Assembly: GCA_023957375.1 (NCBI GenBank) | Contig: JAMLHB010000002.1 | Span: 372,001-436,000 of the forward strand | Source of the DNA: Flavobacteriales bacterium | Lineage (GTDB): Bacteria > Bacteroidota > Bacteroidia > Flavobacteriales_F > PHOS-HE28 | DNA length: 64,000 nt | Reading direction: 5' to 3' | Part shown: piece after piece, positions 14,594 to 23,896 of the stretch | Position numbering within the stretch: the first letter of the stretch is position 1 | Layout of the letters: the number at the start of each line of letters is the position of its first letter | Notes under the pieces: generated by a model | The model's input: the letters and a program-made list of their open reading frames with translations, nothing else | Told to the model about the DNA's origin: nothing | Database searches by the model: none | Made by a program: the position numbers and the translations under genes

Positions 14594-17083
14594 ATGCCAA
14601 AACACCTTGTTCTGCTGTTTTTGGGCCTGATGGGATTCAACCCTTTGCCCGCCCAGCGCGGACCGGGCGGCATGCAGCCCACAGGCCAGGCCTACGGACG
14701 CCTGATGGACAGCAACCGCAAGCCGGTGCCCTTTGCCAGCATCAGCATCCTGCGGGGCGATAGCGTGGTAGGCGGCGTGCTGGTACAGGAGAACGGCGAC
14801 TTCAACATACCCCGGTTGCCGTTGGGCAAATTGCGGCTGCGGGCCGTGGCGATGGGCTATTCACCCCTGGACACCAGCTTTACCCTGTCGGCGCAACAGC
14901 CCGCGCGCGATCTTGGCAACCTGCGCTTGGCCACCGATGCGGTGGTGCTGCAAGCAGCCGAGATCACCAAGGAGCGCGCCACCCAGGTACTTCAGGTGGA
15001 CCGCCGGGTGTACAACGTGGAGAAGGACATCAGTGCGGCAGGAGGGGATGCCACCGACGTGATGAGGCGCATCCCCGGCCTGAGCGTGGATGCCGACGGC
15101 AACGTGGAGATGCGCGGCAAGAGCCCGCGCGTGTTCGTGGACGGGCGGCCCAGCACCCTCACCCTGGAGCAGATCCCGGCGGCGGACATCGAACGCGTGG
15201 AGGTGATCACCAACCCCAGCGTGATCTTCGACGCCGATGCCACGGGCGGCATCGTGAACGTGGTGTTGAAGAAATCCTTGCGACCGGGGTTCAGCGGACA
15301 GCTGCAAGCGGGCATAGGCACCGATGAACGGTACAATGCCAACGGCAACTTCCAGCTTCGCCAAGGACGCAATGCCTTCAACATCGGGCTGGGCTTGGGG
15401 CACGGCGCCTCGCCGGGCCGGAGCTACAGCCGCCGCACCGACCTGGCCGACGACTTGCCCACGGGTTACTTCAACCAGGACGCCACACAGGTGAACAATC
15501 GCATGCGCTACAACGCGCGCATCGGTTGGGACCACAACTTGAGCGTGCGCAACACACTTAGCCTGATGCAAAGCATGTCCATGGGGGAGCGCGGCGGCAC
15601 CGAGGACCAGGAATACACCAGCCGGGACGGTGCGCACCTGCTCAACGGTTGGGGCACCCAGCGCAACGCCACGGAAGGGAAGTTCTCCAACTATACCTCC
15701 CGCGCCGGGTTCAAGCGCAGCACCCTGAAGCCAGGCAAGGAATGGAGCACCGACCTCACCGTGAACTTCAGCGACCGCACTTCGCCCTCCAGCACTGAAC
15801 AACACAATTTTGGCAGCGGGGCAGCCGTGGCATACAGCCTGCAGAACCGTGATTCCCAAGTGAAGGAACAGGAATGGACCTGGCAGTTCGACGTGGCCGA
15901 CGCCTACGCGGACAACCGCAAGCTTGAATGGGGGTTCAAGGCCAACCTGGACCAACAGCGATCCACCATGGACGTCACCTTCGGCAACGATACCATCGCC
16001 GGGCTGCTGCGCGACACGTCGTTGAGCAATGCGTACCTGATCCGCACCTTGGTGAATGCCGCATACGTGAACTGGACCACGAAGCTCAACGCGCACTGGT
16101 CGATGCAGGCGGGCCTGCGGTTGGAGCAGAACGGCATGACCGCCGAACGGACCGACCTGCAGCAATCCTTCAGCTACAATTACCCCAGCGGGTTGAACGA
16201 CCTGGGGCGCATCCTCTTCCCCGGGGTGTACCTGAGCCACAAGTGGGATGCTGAGGAAGGCCGCTTGCAGCGCGAACTGCAGGTAAACGTATCGCGCAAG
16301 GTAAACCGGCCCAACCATTGGCAAATGATGCCCTACCTGATGCCGGTGGATGCGCGCAGCTACCGGATGGGGAATCCCACGTTGAGGCCCGAGATGAGCA
16401 CCATCCTGGAGGTGAACCACCTGCTGCCATTGGGTGAAAAGGGGAACTGGCTCTCCTCGGTGTACGCCCGCTTCACCACGGACGTGATCACCAGCTACAA
16501 CCTGCCGATGGCCAATGACCCCAATATCTTGTTGGCCAGCTATGTGAACGGTGACGGCAACCAAGGCTACGGCTGGGAGAACACCATCAAGCTCACCGTG
16601 TGGGAGGGCCTTGAGGCAACGCTGAACGGCAATGTGCAATGGGTGCAGATCGGCCTGAGCCAGGGTGGCAGGTCGTTCAACAACACCGGGGTGAACTTCG
16701 ACGGCAAGATCAATCTCTCCCAGAAGCTGCCCAAGGGCTTCACCGTGCAAGTGAACAGCGATTACGACAGTCCCCGTGTGATCCCCCAGGGGCACACGCT
16801 GGAGCGCTATTCGTTGGACATCTCCGCCCGCAAGGAGTTCGGCAAGAACCTCTCCGTCACGGCCAGCGCCGACAATCTGCTGGATTCACGCGGCTGGGGA
16901 TCTTACTACGACACGCCCACCTTCGTGCAGGAGAGCTTCCGCACGTGGGGCACCCGGTCGTTCCGGATCACGGCCTCCTGGCGGTTCGGCAAGCAGGATA
17001 CGCAGCTGTTCAAGCGCAAGGCCAGCCCCGGCGAACGCCGTGTGCCCGGCACCGGCGGGGGTGACGAGGGCGGCGGCGAGTGA
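14594..17083 (+). CDS. TonB-dependent receptor-type outer-membrane protein
   Basis: The 829-residue outer-membrane transporter has a signal peptide (to about residue 22), then a carboxypeptidase-regulatory-like domain (GRLMDSNRKPVPFASISIL, about 35-115). A TonB plug domain follows (VMRRIPGLSVDADGNVEMRG, PRVFVDGRPST, IERVEVITNPS, ATGGIVNVVLKK), and a long OMP_b-brl_3-type beta-barrel ends the protein with RITASWRFG and a short Arg/Gly-rich tail. Receptors of this subgroup lack the close SusC features, and no SusD is nearby. Their substrate is usually metal chelates or small organics, and is unknown here. It is a single gene between the RNA-binding protein and a convergent HmuY-like lipoprotein gene only 5 bases away. 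Confidence 0.9.
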   Translation: MPKHLVLLFLGLMGFNPLPAQRGPGGMQPTGQAYGRLMDSNRKPVPFASISILRGDSVVGGVLVQENGDFNIPRLPLGKLRLRAVAMGYSPLDTSFTLSAQQPARDLGNLRLATDAVVLQAAEITKERATQVLQVDRRVYNVEKDISAAGGDATDVMRRIPGLSVDADGNVEMRGKSPRVFVDGRPSTLTLEQIPAADIERVEVITNPSVIFDADATGGIVNVVLKKSLRPGFSGQLQAGIGTDERYNANGNFQLRQGRNAFNIGLGLGHGASPGRSYSRRTDLADDLPTGYFNQDATQVNNRMRYNARIGWDHNLSVRNTLSLMQSMSMGERGGTEDQEYTSRDGAHLLNGWGTQRNATEGKFSNYTSRAGFKRSTLKPGKEWSTDLTVNFSDRTSPSSTEQHNFGSGAAVAYSLQNRDSQVKEQEWTWQFDVADAYADNRKLEWGFKANLDQQRSTMDVTFGNDTIAGLLRDTSLSNAYLIRTLVNAAYVNWTTKLNAHWSMQAGLRLEQNGMTAERTDLQQSFSYNYPSGLNDLGRILFPGVYLSHKWDAEEGRLQRELQVNVSRKVNRPNHWQMMPYLMPVDARSYRMGNPTLRPEMSTILEVNHLLPLGEKGNWLSSVYARFTTDVITSYNLPMANDPNILLASYVNGDGNQGYGWENTIKLTVWEGLEATLNGNVQWVQIGLSQGGRSFNNTGVNFDGKINLSQKLPKGFTVQVNSDYDSPRVIPQGHTLERYSLDISARKEFGKNLSVTASADNLLDSRGWGSYYDTPTFVQESFRTWGTRSFRITASWRFGKQDTQLFKRKASPGERRVPGTGGGDEGGGE

Positions 17084-17088
17084 ACCGG

Positions 17089-18057
17089 CTACAACGGTAC
17101 CACCTCGAACGTCGGCGAGCCCCGCAGGCCCTGGTCGTCGTAGTAGTCCACGAAGTGGAGCTTGAAGAAGTAGCCCTCGCGGTCCTGCACGATGTAGACC
17201 TTGTTGCTGTACACTTCGTACAGGCCGCTATCGAAGGAGTATTCCTTCCAATCGTAGCCAATGGCATCCTGATCGGTGGTGAAGGGGTGGGCCAGTGTAT
17301 CGGCCAGAGTGACCTCGTTGAAGTTGCCTGTGAGCTTGGCTACGCGTACTCCGCTGAAGCCGTTCACGGCGCCGGTTACCAGGTAGGCCTGGTAAGGGTC
17401 GGGCGGGCGGAATTGCTCGGTGTACTGGCTGAACACCATGTCGTACGTGCCCAACGGCGGAGCAATCTGCACTGTACCGCCCGCTTGCAGACTGAAGTGC
17501 ACATAGGCCCTTGCCGCATCTTTTTGCACCGTGAACACGTGCTCGTCCGTGCCACCCAAGTTCGCCGTGCGGAACTGGAAGTTGTCGGCATCCACGCTGG
17601 TGAACTGCACCTTGCGCAGGCCCATGGGCTGGCCGCTGATGTCGTAGCCCATGTCCAAAACAAAGATGGGGTTGCCCTGGCGCCAATCGCCGAAGGCCAA
17701 GCTGTCCGTGCTCCCGTTGGGCAGGTCGATCTTCCAGGTGTTGCCGAAGCCGTTGGAATCGGCGGCCTGCTCCCAGGGAACGTTGCTGTGGTGCGCACGC
17801 ATCAGGCGTGCATAGTTCAGCCGCACCTGCCAGCCTCCGTCGCCGCATTCGAAGGCGAGGTCCCAGTCCATTTTGCTGTTCATGGCCACCACGCTGTACG
17901 TGCCCAGGTCGAACCACAGCTGGCGGTCGTAGCCGGGGCCAACGGGTGCCACGCACTCCACGGCACCGCCGCGTGCGTGTTTGGGCACCGGCAACTCTTC
18001 TTTCATGCATCCGCCCAATGCAATAGCTGCTACCCCCATGGCATGGATCGCCTTCAT
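17089..18057 (-). CDS. HmuY-like lipoprotein
   Basis: The 322-residue lipoprotein has a signal peptide with lipobox ALGGC (Cys17). The mature part contains repeated beta-rich HmuY-type segments (WDLAFECGDGGWQVRLNYA, DMGYDISGQPMGLRKVQFT, FFKLHFVDYYDDQGLRGSPTFE). The HmuY family contains haem-binding lipoproteins of Porphyromonas and related but uncharacterised homologs. The ATG overlaps the stop of the TonB receptor upstream (ATGA), so the two are translationally coupled. The start at 18057 is chosen over upstream in-frame ATGs because the signal peptide begins there. Haem as ligand is an inference from family and context; the classical haem-coordinating His residues of HmuY cannot be assigned by eye. 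Confidence 0.8.
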   Translation of the reverse strand: MKAIHAMGVAAIALGGCMKEELPVPKHARGGAVECVAPVGPGYDRQLWFDLGTYSVVAMNSKMDWDLAFECGDGGWQVRLNYARLMRAHHSNVPWEQAADSNGFGNTWKIDLPNGSTDSLAFGDWRQGNPIFVLDMGYDISGQPMGLRKVQFTSVDADNFQFRTANLGGTDEHVFTVQKDAARAYVHFSLQAGGTVQIAPPLGTYDMVFSQYTEQFRPPDPYQAYLVTGAVNGFSGVRVAKLTGNFNEVTLADTLAHPFTTDQDAIGYDWKEYSFDSGLYEVYSNKVYIVQDREGYFFKLHFVDYYDDQGLRGSPTFEVVPL

Positions 18058-20336
18058 GGCCGGTCTAGTTTGGATTTCCCTTTGATGTCTGCCGCCAAAC
18101 GGATGAAAAAAGTGCGCCCGGTGGCCATCGGAATGCTGCCGGACGAAGGCCCGGTGTGCGCCCCGCCATTGCCCACCGTAGCGTTCAGGTCGGTGATGTC
18201 CAACAGGTTCTTGCAGCCCGCCTGCACGGTAAGCCGGTTGTTCCACAGCGACTTGGACACGGATGCATCGGCCATCAGGTAGGGCTCAATGTGGCCGCGT
18301 GCCAGTTCATCCTCCCCCACATAGATGTAGCTCTGCTGCCGCCCCTGATACTTGGCGAAGAGGTTGATGCTCCATGCCTGTTTGCGCCAGTGGCGAGTGA
18401 TGCCCAAGTTGGCCGATGGCGAGTGGTCGTAGGCATCACCGCCGGTGCGCACCCCCAGGGTGTCATACCTTCCGGTGAGCGCCCCACCGGCCTGCACCGA
18501 CCAGTGGCCCGATTCCCAGCCCATGCCGATGCTTCCGCCCAGCGTTCGGTATTCGCCCACATTGATGTACCGGTACAAGGTGGCGCTCTCCTCGGCCAGG
18601 GTGATCAAGTTGTGCACCCGGTCGTGGTACAAGGAGGCCTCCCCGCGCAGTATGCCGTGTTCCAGCGGCTTGCGGTAGTTGAGCGAGAGGGAGTAATTGT
18701 TGGAGTTTTCCGCGAGCAGGTCGGGGTTGCCGTGGATGTCGTGGTTCACGTCCACAAAGTAGAGGAAGAGCTCCTTGAGCGAAGGTGCCCTGAAGCCTTG
18801 GGCATAGGCTGCCCGCAGCACCCAGGCGGTGTCCAACTGCAGGCGCAGGTCCACCGAAGGCACCACCGGGGCGCGGTAACGCGTATTGTGGGCGTAACGG
18901 GCGCCGGGCCGCAACACCACGTTGCCCACCGGGCTCCATTGCATGCTGGCAAAGGCGGCATAGTCGCCGATCTGCTGGGGCGTGCCGTCGGCAATGCGCA
19001 CGCCCTCCCCTGTTTCCAGGTTCAGGTCCATGCCGGCCTCGTATCCGATGCGCGCGCTGTCCGGCAGGCCGGAAAAGGTTGCCCGCACATTGGTGAGGGT
19101 GAAGCGCGAGTCATCTTCCTGTCCGGGCACGGGCTTGGCCTGCAGCGTGGTGAGGTCGCGCAGCCATTGGCTCCGGATGCGCTGGTATCGGTCGTGTGCC
19201 ACCAAGGCATTGAAGCGCCGCCCCTTGGCGAGGTTGGCGGTGGTGAACACCGCATTGTCCAGCCGCCGGGTGTTGAACTCCGAGTCGAAGGCGGATTCAT
19301 TGTAGGGTGCGCGTGGTCTTCCGCGATCGATGATGCGGTCCTCCATCAGTTCACCCTTGTAGCTCAGGCTCCACTCCTTGGAAAGGTCGAAGCGATAGTT
19401 GGCGCGGGCGAAGTATTGCTCCCTGGGCTTCCAGGTTTGGTAGCGGGAGGAATCGGCCAGTTGCTTGCCGAAGGCGTATGTGGAGGCCTGACCCGGCGCC
19501 CAACCTCCGAAGTAATTCCGGCCGAGGGTAAGCAGCAGATCGCTTTTTCCGAAGCGTTTTCCGGCTGCCGCCGACAGGTTGAGCCTGCCGATCTGTTCCG
19601 CATAGGCCACTGCCTTCAGGGAGGTGGCCGGGCCGGTTCCCTTGCGGGTGATGAGGTTGATGGTGCCCGCCAGCGCGTTGGTGCCGTAGTTCACGCTCAA
19701 GGGCCCTTCCAGGATCTCCACGCGATCAATGCCGGTCAGGTCGATCTGGGCGAGGTCCAGGTTGCCGTCCTGCCGGCCGATGACGGGTACCCCGTCCACG
19801 AGGATCTTCACGTTCTCGCCTCCGAGGCCGCGCATGCTCAGGGAGGTCCCCAGCATGTTGTCCTGCGCCAGGCGCATGTTCAGTTCCTGGCCGAGCACAT
19901 CCCCCAGGTTCTGTGCCGCCATGCGTTGGATCTGCTCGGCATTCACCACGTGCATGCGCTGCACGGCCCGGTCCGCCCGGGTAGGTTTGTACTGGCCGGT
20001 CACCACCAGTTCATCCAGGTTGAAAGCTGCTGCGCGGCGCAGCATGAAGGTGCGCGGGGCCAAGGTGAACAGGGTATCCCGGACCGGTTCATATCCGATG
20101 AAGTCGATGCGGACGGCGAGGCCCTTTTCCACCTCCGCCTGGTGTACCGGCAGGGTGCACTTCCCTTCCGGTCCGGCCACCGTCAATCCCTTGGCCTGGG
20201 TCTGCAGCACCGTCCAGGTGGCATGGGCATAGCCCACCGGCTCATGCGATCCGGCCTCTCGCACAGTGATCTCCACCTGTGCCTTCATCCCCGTGGCAAG
20301 CAGTGCGGCCAGCCCGATGGCTGCAAAACGTTTCAT
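18054..20336 (-). CDS. TonB-dependent receptor, HmuR-like
   Basis: The 760-residue outer-membrane receptor has a signal peptide (to about residue 20), a short carboxypeptidase-regulatory-like domain, a TonB-box-like segment (DELVVTGQYKPT), a plug domain (GDVLGQELNMRLAQ, VKILVDGVPVIGRQDG, IDRVEILEGPLSVNYGTNA, GTINLITRKG) and a 22-strand-type barrel. The plug resembles BtuB/HmuR-type receptors for cobalamin, haem or metals more than SusC. The gene sits between two HmuY-like genes on the same strand. It starts 64 bases after the upstream gene and overlaps the downstream lipoprotein by 4 bases. The operon context supports haem or another iron-containing ligand, but the substrate is not proved. 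Confidence 0.9.
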   Translation of the reverse strand: MKRFAAIGLAALLATGMKAQVEITVREAGSHEPVGYAHATWTVLQTQAKGLTVAGPEGKCTLPVHQAEVEKGLAVRIDFIGYEPVRDTLFTLAPRTFMLRRAAAFNLDELVVTGQYKPTRADRAVQRMHVVNAEQIQRMAAQNLGDVLGQELNMRLAQDNMLGTSLSMRGLGGENVKILVDGVPVIGRQDGNLDLAQIDLTGIDRVEILEGPLSVNYGTNALAGTINLITRKGTGPATSLKAVAYAEQIGRLNLSAAAGKRFGKSDLLLTLGRNYFGGWAPGQASTYAFGKQLADSSRYQTWKPREQYFARANYRFDLSKEWSLSYKGELMEDRIIDRGRPRAPYNESAFDSEFNTRRLDNAVFTTANLAKGRRFNALVAHDRYQRIRSQWLRDLTTLQAKPVPGQEDDSRFTLTNVRATFSGLPDSARIGYEAGMDLNLETGEGVRIADGTPQQIGDYAAFASMQWSPVGNVVLRPGARYAHNTRYRAPVVPSVDLRLQLDTAWVLRAAYAQGFRAPSLKELFLYFVDVNHDIHGNPDLLAENSNNYSLSLNYRKPLEHGILRGEASLYHDRVHNLITLAEESATLYRYINVGEYRTLGGSIGMGWESGHWSVQAGGALTGRYDTLGVRTGGDAYDHSPSANLGITRHWRKQAWSINLFAKYQGRQQSYIYVGEDELARGHIEPYLMADASVSKSLWNNRLTVQAGCKNLLDITDLNATVGNGGAHTGPSSGSIPMATGRTFFIRLAADIKGKSKLDRP

Positions 20337-20400
20337 GTGGCAAAATCCGTTGCCGGCCGCAAGCCGGCCATACCGGTCTCTCAGAGGTTGAATGCGGGGA

Positions 20401-21627
20401 TTATTGCACCACCAACTTGCCGGTGGCTACCGCTTTGTCCGCTTCAAACCGCAAGGTGTACACACCGGCGGCCAGGTCCTTCACGTCCAAAGCAAGCACT
20501 CCTGTGGCCTGGTTCCATTGGTGCACGGCAACTTGCCGTCCGGCGGCGTTGAACACCCTCAGCGTTCCCCGGACTTGCGGCAATTCCAATTGCACTTGCG
20601 CCTGGCTTCCCTCCACCGGATTGGGCCATGCGTGCAGCGCGGCCTGATGTACGGCAACTTCGCTTACGGCCGCCGGGCTCATCAATTCCTGGTTGAAGTT
20701 CATGTCGCCGGTGGCGCTTCCGCCGAAGCCAGTGAAGACCATCTTCCATACGCTGCCCGCACGGTCCTTCACAAAGTAGGTGGTGTCCGGCGCGATCACA
20801 TAGCTTCCGCTGTACCGCTTCCAATCCGAACCGATGATGTTGATGTCGCTGCTGAAATCACCTCCCCACCAGTCGGCCTGGTCCGTGGGCACGCCGTCCA
20901 CCTCCAAGGCGGTGACGTTGCGGTTCTGCAGCACGCCGGTCACATTGTAAGGCGTGGGCACGAAATCGGTGTACTTGGTGAAGAGCAGGTCCCAGGTGGC
21001 GGATGCGGGTTCGCGGTCCATGGCCGCATTGGTGCCGAAGGACCAGTAGGCGAAGTTCTTTCCGGTGTAGTTGGCCTTGTTGATGCTGGCATCGTGGCTG
21101 TCGGTGCCGTCCAAGTTGGCGTACGTGAAGCTGAACACCCCGCTGATCACGGAATTGATGCGGAGCTTTTTCCAGGTATCGTCCGGGAGCAGCACGGCAT
21201 ACACCTTGTTTCCGATCATCTGGTGGGTGACGGAGTTGTAGTTGCCCCAACCCACGTTAAAGCCATCGGGGTCATCCATGTTGTTGCCGTGGTTGAGCGC
21301 GCCCATGTCCCAACGGGCCACATCGTTGTCGATGCGGGTCCATGCCGCTTCATCGGGCGCGTTAAGCTGGTCCCACGTGCCGAATGTGAACGGGGTTTCG
21401 TACACCACCGACCCCTTTGCGGTGTTCACCCGCACACCTGCGGTAAGGCCAGTGAGCTCGAACGCCAGGTCCCACTCATGGAGGGGTGCGCGGCCCACCT
21501 CGCCGTTCTGGAAGCTGTACCAGACCTGGTCGGTATAGGTGGGCGAGATGGAAACCGTGACGGGAGTTTGTGCCTGAAGCCCTGCTGTCAGACCGATCGT
21601 TGAAAGAAGAAGGATAGTTTTTTTCAT
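20401..21627 (-). CDS. HmuY-like protein with T9SS sorting domain
   Basis: The 408-residue protein has a signal peptide (MKKTILLLSTIGLTAGLQAQ), two HmuY-type beta domains (VWYSFQNGEVG, WDLAFELTGLTAGVRVNTA; SATWDLLFTKYTDFV, VWKMVFTGFGG) and a type A T9SS sorting domain at the end (AWPNPVEGSQAQVQLELPQ ... GVYTLRFEADKAVATGKLVVQ). It should therefore be exported across the outer membrane and act at the surface or be released. It is the first gene of the operon with the HmuR-like receptor and the HmuY-like lipoprotein. GTCCTTTG on the minus strand (21635-21642) is a possible -7 element 7 bases before the ATG. A surface-exposed ligand scavenger that hands over to the receptor is the natural inference. 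Confidence 0.82.
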   Translation of the reverse strand: MKKTILLLSTIGLTAGLQAQTPVTVSISPTYTDQVWYSFQNGEVGRAPLHEWDLAFELTGLTAGVRVNTAKGSVVYETPFTFGTWDQLNAPDEAAWTRIDNDVARWDMGALNHGNNMDDPDGFNVGWGNYNSVTHQMIGNKVYAVLLPDDTWKKLRINSVISGVFSFTYANLDGTDSHDASINKANYTGKNFAYWSFGTNAAMDREPASATWDLLFTKYTDFVPTPYNVTGVLQNRNVTALEVDGVPTDQADWWGGDFSSDINIIGSDWKRYSGSYVIAPDTTYFVKDRAGSVWKMVFTGFGGSATGDMNFNQELMSPAAVSEVAVHQAALHAWPNPVEGSQAQVQLELPQVRGTLRVFNAAGRQVAVHQWNQATGVLALDVKDLAAGVYTLRFEADKAVATGKLVVQ

Positions 21628-21833
21628 GGCGGTGCAAAGGACAGCAGAAATGGCTTTCCGGTGATACCCCGATCACGGTATTCAGGGGCGTTTCCGTCAT
21701 GGAATTGTGATTTCGCACGTTTGCCTCCCCGGGCCGGCACCTGCGTTGCCCGCTGGCCTTTGGTGCCAAGAGCTGTGAAGCTTCCCGCGCACGGCAGGGC
21801 CATTGCTTAACATTGCCTTGCTTTCACCGCCCC

Positions 21834-23180
21834 ATGCGCCGCCGCACCCTTGGCCCCTTGGTCCTGTTGGCCACCTTGAGCGTGGCCGGGGTCGTTTCCA
21901 CGCAAGTGGTCTGGTTGAAGCGCGCGCAGCAGTATGAGCGGGAACAGGTGACGCTGCAGCAGCAGCACCAGGAGCAATTAGACAAGCAGTTCAACGATCG
22001 CGTGGTGATCGCGCTCACCGAGGTCACCGAACGGATCTTGTCGATCACCAAGGACCCCAGCGACCTGTTCGATGCCGTGAAGCAGGAGCGGCCGAACTAT
22101 TTCGTGGCCAGCATCAACGACACGATCCACCCCTACCTACTGGAATCGCTGCTGGAGCAGGAGTTCAGGCGGCGCAACATCAACGAGGATTTCGAATATG
22201 GCATTTACGACTGTTTCACGGACAGCATCGTGTACGGCAACTATGTGAGCGTGGGCGACACCATGCGCACCGATTCCACGCGGCACAGCCACTTGCTGAA
22301 GTTGGACAAGGACGGGCACTATTTCGGGGTGTTCTTCCCGCGGCGCACCTCCGCCCTGTGGGCGCCCGCCGAAGGAAGCACGATCAATTGGATCTATCCC
22401 GCCGTGGTCACCTTCATTGTATTCGCCTTCTTCGTGTACAGCATGTGGGTGATCCTGCGGCAGAAGCGGTTGGACGAGATGAAGAACGACTTCATCGGGA
22501 ACATGACGCATGAGCTGAAGACGCCCATCAGCACCATTGCGCTCAGCAGCGCAGTGCTCACCGACCCGGACATCGTGAAAGAACCGGACCGGCTCCACAC
22601 CTACGCGAAGATCATCCAGTCCGAAAACGAGCGTCTGCGCCAACAGGTGGAGCGCGTGCTTCAATTGGCCACCATGGAAACAGGCGAAAGCAAGCTTCGC
22701 ATGGAACCGGTGGACGTGCACGAGCTGCTGCGGGAGACGGTCGGCTCCTTCGGCCTGATCCTCACCGAACGCTCCGGGGAATGCACGTTGGACCTTCGCG
22801 CCGGCAATGCGGTGGTGCAAGGAGACCGCGTCCACTTGGGCAACGTGCTGTTCAACCTGGTGGACAACGCGGCGAAGTACTCCAAGGGGGCACCGCGACT
22901 GCGGATCGCCACACGCAATGCGGGCCAATGGCTGGAAGTGGCCATAGCCGACCGCGGCATCGGCATCCGCAAGGAAGACCTGCGCAACATCTTCGAGCGC
23001 TTCTTCCGCGTGCATACCGGCAACGTGCACGATGTAAAAGGGTTCGGCCTGGGGCTGCACTACGTGGCCGGCATGGTTCGCGCCCACGGTGGCAAGGTGC
23101 GGGTGGAAAGCACCCCGGGAGAAGGCAGCACCTTTACTTTGGAACTTCCCTTGGCAGGGACACAGAACAAGATCCGATGA
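21834..23180 (+). CDS. rprX: Sensor histidine kinase, RprX-like
   Basis: The 448-residue membrane kinase has an N-terminal membrane helix (about 6-24), a ~160-residue periplasmic domain, and a second helix (about 187-208, WIYPAVVTFIVFAFFVYSMW). HisKA carries His226 in FIGNMTHELKTPIST. HATPase_c follows with N box NVLFNLVDNAAKYS, G1 ADRGIGIRKEDL, F box FERFFR and G2 GFGLGL. The order and the paired OmpR-type regulator resemble RprX/RprY of Bacteroides and Porphyromonas; the symbol is by resemblance only. The ATG at 21834 is preferred to the one at 21813 because the membrane anchor follows at once. Its stop overlaps the regulator's start (ATGA). Confidence 0.88.
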   Translation: MRRRTLGPLVLLATLSVAGVVSTQVVWLKRAQQYEREQVTLQQQHQEQLDKQFNDRVVIALTEVTERILSITKDPSDLFDAVKQERPNYFVASINDTIHPYLLESLLEQEFRRRNINEDFEYGIYDCFTDSIVYGNYVSVGDTMRTDSTRHSHLLKLDKDGHYFGVFFPRRTSALWAPAEGSTINWIYPAVVTFIVFAFFVYSMWVILRQKRLDEMKNDFIGNMTHELKTPISTIALSSAVLTDPDIVKEPDRLHTYAKIIQSENERLRQQVERVLQLATMETGESKLRMEPVDVHELLRETVGSFGLILTERSGECTLDLRAGNAVVQGDRVHLGNVLFNLVDNAAKYSKGAPRLRIATRNAGQWLEVAIADRGIGIRKEDLRNIFERFFRVHTGNVHDVKGFGLGLHYVAGMVRAHGGKVRVESTPGEGSTFTLELPLAGTQNKIR

Positions 23181-23896
23181 ACATGAAAACTGAACCATCC
23201 CCGGCCAGCAAGGGTGTCCTGCTCTACGTGGAGGATGATGAGAACCTCGGCTTCGTGGTACAGGACACCTTGAAACGCCACGGTTACACGGTACACTTGT
23301 TCCGCGATGGCAAGGATGGCCTGAAGCATTTCAACCAGAACCATTACGACCTGTGCCTGCTGGACGTGATGCTTCCCGACAAGGACGGCCTGAGCCTGGC
23401 CGAGGACATCCGGATCACCAACAGCAAGGTGCCCATCATTTTCCTTACGGCGAAGGGCCAGCCCGAGGACCGCATTGCAGGCTTCAGGGCCGGTGGGGAC
23501 GACTACATCGCCAAGCCCTTCAGCACCGAGGAGCTGCTGCTTCGCATCGATGCGATCTTGCGCCGCACCCGCGAGCAAGCCCACGATCCAGCCGGCCACG
23601 ATGTGTACACCATCGGGGAATTCACCTTCGACAACCGGAACAAGGTACTGGAGCACGCTGTTGAAACGCGGCGCCTCACCAAGAAGGAGGCTGCCGTGCT
23701 TCGCCTGCTGGCCATGCACCAGGACCAGGTGCTTCCCCGCGAACTGCTGCTGAACATGGTGTGGGGCGATGACAGCTATTTCCTGGGCCGCAGCCTGGAC
23801 GTGTTCATCAGCCGCCTGCGCAAATACCTGAGGCATGACGAGCGCGTGCGCATCGTGAACGTGCACGGCATCGGGTTCAAGATGCAAGTGGCCTAG
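23177..23896 (+). CDS. rprY: OmpR-family response regulator, RprY-like
   Basis: The 239-residue regulator has a receiver domain (acidic pair VEDDENLG, phospho-acceptor Asp63 in LLDVMLPDKDGL, FLTAKGQ, Lys in IAKPFSTEEL) and a winged-helix DNA-binding domain (RRLTKKEAAVLRLLAMHQDQV, RSLDVFISRLRKYL). The start codon overlaps the kinase stop, so the pair is translationally coupled; a second ATG two codons later is possible. It ends 73 bases before the convergent yqeY-like gene. RprY in relatives responds to oxidative and envelope stress; that function is inferred by family only. Confidence 0.92.
   Translation: MNMKTEPSPASKGVLLYVEDDENLGFVVQDTLKRHGYTVHLFRDGKDGLKHFNQNHYDLCLLDVMLPDKDGLSLAEDIRITNSKVPIIFLTAKGQPEDRIAGFRAGGDDYIAKPFSTEELLLRIDAILRRTREQAHDPAGHDVYTIGEFTFDNRNKVLEHAVETRRLTKKEAAVLRLLAMHQDQVLPRELLLNMVWGDDSYFLGRSLDVFISRLRKYLRHDERVRIVNVHGIGFKMQVA

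Follow-up and report, generated by a model that had tools for sequence, protein, structure and literature searches.

A conserved operon that joins a T9SS-exported and a lipid-anchored HmuY-like protein to one TonB-dependent receptor: a probable haem-uptake system of Bacteroidota

Introduction

Why would a single operon make two HmuY-like proteins and send them out of the cell by different routes? The question is raised by three genes at positions 17089-21627 of a 64,000-nucleotide stretch of Flavobacteriales DNA (hereafter the window), which covers positions 372001-436000 of its contig in a genome of 3.83 Mb. They lie on the minus strand, as do all operon features given below, in the order P0002, P0003, P0001. 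A sequence-only reading had taken them to suggest a relay from a released or surface-fixed scavenger to a lipoprotein and on to a receptor, and had set this against a single HmuY lipoprotein working with HmuR in Porphyromonas. The contrast was drawn too simply: according to the accessible part of PMC12106395, the genomes of several Porphyromonas species contain genes for two or three HmuY proteins.

We propose that the operon is probably an iron-regulated, more precisely iron-repressed, haem-uptake system composed of one receptor and two HmuY-like proteins that are delivered by different routes. The basis for this proposal was computed: protein families, folds, conservation of the set, export signals, a haem-receptor signature and an operator common to iron and haem genes.

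Results

Both Flanking Proteins Resemble HmuY and Are Internally Duplicated

The coordinates and strand of the operon proved exact, and the presence of two HmuY-like proteins, one of the T9SS type and one with a lipobox, was confirmed by Pfam and by inspection of the sequence. The first gene encodes P0002, the T9SS-exported HmuY-like protein (20401..21627, 408 aa; assigned by Pfam and NCBIfam, model and fold match), the second P0003, a TonB-dependent receptor with plug and TonB barrel by Pfam (18054..20336, 760 aa), and the third P0001, the HmuY-like surface lipoprotein (17089..18057, 322 aa; assigned by PF14064, model and lipobox). The receptor stop and the lipoprotein start overlap in an ATGA read at 18054..18057, which bears out the translational coupling that had been claimed for this pair, and the same 4-nt overlap is present in many relatives.

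P0001 matches the HmuY family PF14064 well above the cut-off of 27 (56.8 bits) and was the sole match in a scan of the whole genome, and P0002 barely exceeds the cut-off (28.0 bits). A BLASTP comparison shows the two to be homologues (8e-18, 24% identity). P0001 found nothing in PHROGs, no family in NCBIfam and nothing in a single-sequence search of the PDB, and a profile search against the PDB returned HmuY matches. Structure prediction, the check that the sequence-only reading had put forward, spoke clearly for both proteins. AlphaFold models built on alignments of 50 and 53 sequences reached a mean pLDDT of 93.8 for P0001 and 91.1 for P0002, and for each model the top eight PDB chains (3u22, 6r2h, 3h8t, 4gbs, 8b6a, 6ewm, 6eu8 and 8b61) belong to the HmuY family, with best Z scores of 15.6 and 13.4, respectively. 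P0001 aligned with the HmuY structures over 135-159 residues (Z 15.6-12.2, rmsd 2.5-3.6), all other rows of its fold table having Z of 5.4 or less; P0002 aligned over 129-139 residues (Z 13.4-11.0, rmsd 2.7-3.5). As judged from these models, both proteins have the HmuY fold, and the fold comparison thus settles the assignment of P0002, which its score close to the cut-off had left marginal.

The 129-159 aligned residues are scattered across nearly 300, implying that P0001 and P0002 exceed in size the HmuY proteins whose structures are solved. Comparing profiles of the first and second half of each protein gave E values of 1.4e-6 for P0001 (best of 40 column shuffles, 0.01) and 3.1e-7 for P0002 (best of 40, 0.0022), and unrelated segments used as controls gave 0.02 or worse. 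With these values well below those of the shuffles, each protein contains two related HmuY-like modules, which in P0002 span approximately residues 20-318.

The Two Proteins Carry Signals for Different Delivery Routes

P0002 begins with a signal peptide, recognized by eye, and ends in a T9SS type A C-terminal sorting domain (20404..20628, residues 334-408). This domain is matched by PF18962 (Por_Secre_tail; 33.6 bits, cut-off 27), by TIGR04183 (39.8 bits, cut-off 23) and by the solved sorting domains 8qb1 (Z 10.6) and 8glk. The genome also encodes SprA (SprA_N, 539.9 bits), so that P0002 combines the features of a type A cargo, a type A domain in a genome with SprA, and its export is predicted. 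The idea that P0002 is a mere sorting-domain protein was ruled out by its HmuY fold match.

P0001 has the lipobox ALGG|C and a predicted mature N-terminus C-M-K-E-E, which matches the signal for surface-exposed lipoproteins; the accessible text of PMC5080379 defines this signal as C-X-K-(D/E)2 for Capnocytophaga. The lipobox cysteine is kept in all 72 aligned lipoproteins, and a regular expression for C-X-[KR]-[DE]2 matched 52 of 73. The lipobox expression misread three loci (L118, L096 and L076) that are regular by eye; applied to the T9SS members, the pattern detected no lipobox. Sequence signals therefore support the view that the two routes of delivery are conserved jointly.

The Receptor Has a Haem-Receptor Signature

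P0003 contains FRAP at residues 515-518, His532, NPDL at 537-540 and His727. (F/Y)RxP and NxxL, separated by exactly 18 residues and enclosing an invariant histidine (His532 in P0003), occur in 75 of 75 aligned receptors of the operon's relatives, and His727 is kept in 72 of them. The FRAP/NxxL pair with histidine is described as a signature of haem receptors in the portion of PMC9331221 that was available, and P0003 shows it, as a receptor of HmuR type would. In the NCBIfam comparison, P0003 stayed below both haem-receptor cut-offs (TIGR01785, 111.7 of 316.85; TIGR01786, 119.1 of 323.75). It thus lies outside these two families and, to judge from its motifs, may work in the manner of HmuR. 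We consider haem or an iron porphyrin the likely substrate, and with similar conviction we take the lipoprotein to be the partner of this receptor.

Which residues might hold the haem? A search for haem-ligating residues, suggested along with the original relay idea, gave a divided answer: conserved candidates were found, and none stands at a clear HmuY position in the window's proteins. His135 of P0002 is kept in 80 of 81 aligned T9SS proteins and is, the start methionine aside, the only position with His, Met or Cys conserved above 60%; Met86 of P0001 is kept in 67 of 72 aligned lipoproteins. By conservation, these two are the best candidate ligands. Profile alignments and residue conservation revealed no obvious HmuY-like ligand pair in P0001 or P0002 of the window. 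A weak profile alignment places His166 of HmuY opposite Phe275 of P0001, and when the halves of the proteins were aligned with HmuY chains of solved structure, only parts of them were covered. A methionine near the site matching His166 is found in 40 of 81 T9SS proteins and is absent from the window's P0002. Ligands to the haem iron are not universal in the HmuY family, some members using methionine or none, as far as PMC12106395 could be consulted.

The lack of a canonical ligand pair in the window's copy, together with its 28.0 bits to HmuY, would fit a T9SS protein that no longer binds haem and acts as an HmuY-derived adhesin or decoy for surface display. We regard this as very improbable, given the near-invariance of His135 and the conservation of the operon and its order.

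The Three Genes Are Conserved Together

How widely is the arrangement kept? In a family sample of 45 genomes, all from one genus, 40 contained a nearly full-length match to P0002. Inspection of 41 stretches from the genus, the window and 40 others, found all three genes in the same order in 39, and the remaining two are cut by contig edges. Wider relatives were collected from genomes of named species. In the best 80 of 106 loci with the T9SS protein, it is accompanied by the receptor in 77 and by the lipoprotein in 73. Retention of gene order in the genus and in many of these wider relatives indicates that the grouping is not due to chance; chance similarity and an oddity of a lone assembly were likewise discarded on account of this conservation. 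Partial proteins under the length limits were excluded from alignments, and L070, a near-duplicate of L044, from alignments and genus motif counts.

The closest relatives among these 80 of 106 loci come from Flavobacteriales metagenome-assembled genomes, and Taibaiella soli and Salibacter halophilus are also among them. Of the seven loci without lipoprotein, six are at the end of a contig or stretch; the seventh, L151, lacks both receptor and lipoprotein despite 10 kb of free flank. Six loci (L137, L140, L143, L145, L148 and L149) have the order receptor, lipoprotein, T9SS protein. The assembly of isolate SJ123 holds two copies of the operon, L085 on contig 169 and L096 on contig 221.

The figure of 73 in 80 overstates the frequency in the phylum, because the scan ranks the closest relatives first, and an even sample of 345 genomes gives a fairer one. 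There, a full-length T9SS protein is encoded by 17 genomes, of which 10 have the lipoprotein gene no more than about 5 kb away, five times on the opposite strand, whereas in four no lipoprotein was detected. At least 19 of the 345 have the lipoprotein and lack a full T9SS protein.

It is conceivable that the two proteins serve as parallel inputs without any relay, the lipoprotein being a permanent lid of the receptor and the T9SS protein an independent scavenger of another source (haem proteins or porphyrins), which, on the surface or released, would deliver to the receptor itself. The separate occurrence of each protein in the phylum sample is in line with this view, and so is the difference between the best-kept candidate ligands, His135 and Met86. 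Near-universal pairing in closer relatives and the common operon, however, suggest cooperation, and we rate parallel inputs as a credible minority view. Serial transfer from the secreted protein to the lipoprotein, as originally proposed, we put forward tentatively, as a step whose chances fall somewhat short of even.

Neighbouring Genes and Promoter Elements Suggest a Link to Iron and Haem

An 18-bp palindromic operator, ATACCGTGATCGGGGTAT, is predicted at 21664..21681, 36 bp ahead of the first start codon. Upstream of it lies a conserved element, ATTCCATGACGGAAA, with the core TTCCATGAC (21691..21705), and downstream the hexamer CTTTGC (21634..21639), a probable -7 region, which we take to be that of a Bacteroidota promoter of the TAnnTTTG type. 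Of 38 upstream regions from the genus, 37 have TTTGC-like sites and 24 have the core TTCCATGAC, its fifth position being A or G, again upstream of the palindrome; by itself, the ATTCCATGACGGAAA element did not rise above chance in the window at two mismatches.

The GATC-centred palindrome, allowing up to one mismatch, has three sites in the genome versus none for a reversed control, and one of them precedes feoA-feoB, at a comparable distance from a TTTGC element. Of 44 genomes from the genus, 38 contain the palindrome, compared with 2 for the control pattern. In 30 palindrome loci inspected, one per genome, six adjoin feoAB and five the HmuY operon. Ten neighbouring first genes were scanned, nine from other palindrome loci and one at the third site of the window's own genome: they comprise two hemS genes and one gene each for a TonB plug, a solute-binding and an NADH dehydrogenase-type protein, besides two PAP2 genes and three without a match. 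The PAP2 phosphatase genes stand behind the iron-type palindrome in two members of the genus (L168:743-1396 and L176:1585-2229). The wider pattern ATACC-N8-GGTAT without a fixed GATC centre was not enriched in the genome (three sites, three for the control).

Beyond the genus, 21 of 42 upstream regions contain a Fur box with no more than 2 mismatches in 16 positions (shuffles, 0.0), and 18 of 42 a palindrome ATACC-N5..9-GGTAT (shuffles, 0.05); for the six receptor-first relatives, the Fur-box count used the region upstream of the receptor. This Fur box was examined by EMSA in Riemerella, as reported in the section of PMC5609570 at hand. Within the genus, none of 38 regions ahead of the operon has such a box, and the palindrome may thus serve another iron regulator there. 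Taken together, gene context and promoter sequences point to iron and haem.

A Variable Slot Holds Candidate Haem-Processing Genes

Extra genes are inserted between the first gene and the receptor in 32 of the best 80 of 106 loci. By labels that derive from single-query phmmer searches, with 20 slot proteins also run against Pfam, the slot holds HemS in 7 loci, a CbiX-like protein in 16, DUF6607 in 6, a hemerythrin-like protein in 2 and another TonB-dependent receptor in 1. Five of the seven HemS slots also encode an ABC system of periplasmic binding protein, FecCD permease and ATPase. The CbiX-like genes are mostly followed by one for a PepSY-type membrane protein. All five CbiX-like N-termini that were read (L119:11270-12238, L112:11249-12208, L113:11246-12235, L132:11193-12200 and L142:11339-12244) have a signal and a lipobox. 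To judge from their sequences, these lipoproteins of the sirohydrochlorin chelatase family are possible extracytoplasmic haem de-chelatases. The six DUF6607 proteins (L108, L111, L123, L128, L138 and L147) score 356-375 bits to PF20311, and their replacing HemS or CbiX suggests a haem-processing role for this family of unknown function. The hemerythrin-like proteins are of RIC/YtfE type (L122:6819-7583 and L125:12246-12998), and the slot of L125 contains an additional unclassified ORF of 321 aa.

The 16 CbiX-like genes, and the slot ABC permease, which scores best with BtuC models, leave some room for another tetrapyrrole as substrate (a corrinoid, a sirohaem-like compound or a metal-free porphyrin) rather than haem that supplies iron; on the evidence of the consulted part of PMC12106395, certain HmuY proteins bind without any ligand to the iron. 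The same slot, however, holds HemS and, in Salibacter, an ATPase of 269.9 bits that passes the curated heme ABC cut-off of 261. With an operator common to feoAB and hemS, the Fur boxes and the HmuY fold also against it, we find a different tetrapyrrole improbable.

No CobN-type HmuS was found among the proteins scanned. In the window's genome, HemS gave no match, and neither did DUF6607, for which the result is weak since no control genome gave a match; the one FecCD permease of this genome is unlinked to the operon.

Discussion

How might such a system work? We envision that iron limitation releases the operator, whereupon P0002 would leave the cell through the T9SS and, outside the cell or loosely held on its surface, bind haem or strip it from haem proteins. 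P0001, as a HmuY-type surface lipoprotein positioned over the TonB receptor, would take up haem directly or from the secreted protein, and P0003, by means of His532 in the FRAP/NxxL loop and His727, would pass it into the periplasm. Further processing would fall, in relatives, to an HmuTUV-like ABC transporter with HemS, to a CbiX-like lipoprotein chelatase or to DUF6607. A still broader scheme, in which two-stage capture by a T9SS haemophore and a duplicated-HmuY lipoprotein is widespread and is coupled in many relatives to CbiX-like de-ironing outside the cytoplasm, with DUF6607 as the alternative, we consider unlikely.

Several observations count against the haem reading: Phe275 at the position of His166 and no methionine near it in the window's P0002, receptor scores below TIGR01785 and TIGR01786, the missing HemS, the genus without Fur boxes (0 of 38), the lack of enrichment of ATACC-N8-GGTAT, and a lipoprotein nearby in only 10 of the 17 phylum genomes with the T9SS protein, in five of them in opposite orientation. 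To these may be added the growth of a Flavobacterium columnare mutant: without its T9SS HmuY, the strain reportedly grows like the wild type under iron limitation (PMC9618737, accessible part).

A close point of comparison is HmuY/HmuR of P. gingivalis, which shares with the window the HmuY fold and Pfam family and a surface lipoprotein encoded beside a receptor of FRAP/NxxL type; a surface complex of lipoprotein and barrel is described for this species in the available portion of PMC12578637. The window's operon differs in having two HmuY-like proteins per receptor, one of them T9SS-exported, each of about 300 residues and internally duplicated, in the order secreted protein, receptor, lipoprotein. 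By eye, hmuSTUV genes are absent from the neighbouring ORFs of the window, and the His166 position is apparently not kept. HfpR/HfpY of Flavobacterium psychrophilum likewise has a receptor gene ahead of a HmuY-like gene. According to what could be consulted of PMC9331221, it is iron-repressed and its HmuY relative binds haem and has low similarity to other HmuY proteins; unlike the window, it has a single HmuY-like protein and a DoxX-family gene in between, and loop L7 of HfpR is extended, with the motif only partly kept.

A T9SS-exported HmuY on its own is already known from F. columnare, where C6N29_01035 combines a HmuY domain with a Por_Secre_tail in one protein; it stands alone, and the consulted sections of PMC9618737 show neither a receptor nor a HmuY lipoprotein encoded in its operon. 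The hmu operon of P. endodontalis places a gene for a protein with a T9SS type A sorting domain, POREN0001_0445, upstream of hmuY, but the accessible text of PMC11208336 does not report it as HmuY-like and calls its relatives orphan genes. The literature searched, which was largely without subscription papers and preprints, yielded no report of an operon that combines a T9SS HmuY with a receptor and a HmuY lipoprotein, and none of the duplication within each protein or of a processing slot that varies. The arrangement is found again in many relatives and seems to have been little described.

If the proposed reading is correct, free-living Bacteroidota scavenge haem with a HmuY pair, one secreted and one anchored, that acts as a unit. 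One operon would then unite TonB-dependent uptake with T9SS export and surface lipoproteins and make a haemophore relay directly testable, and the variable slot offers a first functional hypothesis for DUF6607 and the CbiX-like lipoproteins. It would also show how competition for haem proceeds in environmental species; so far, work on this theme has dealt mainly with bacteria of the mouth, the gut and fish.

Divergent from the operon, a pair of genes identified by eye as sensor histidine kinase and response regulator occupies 21813-23896 of the window (plus strand). A further outer-membrane barrel gene (14594-17083, plus strand) converges on the operon and ends 5 bp from the lipoprotein stop, and a similar convergent gene adjoins the operon in many members of the genus.
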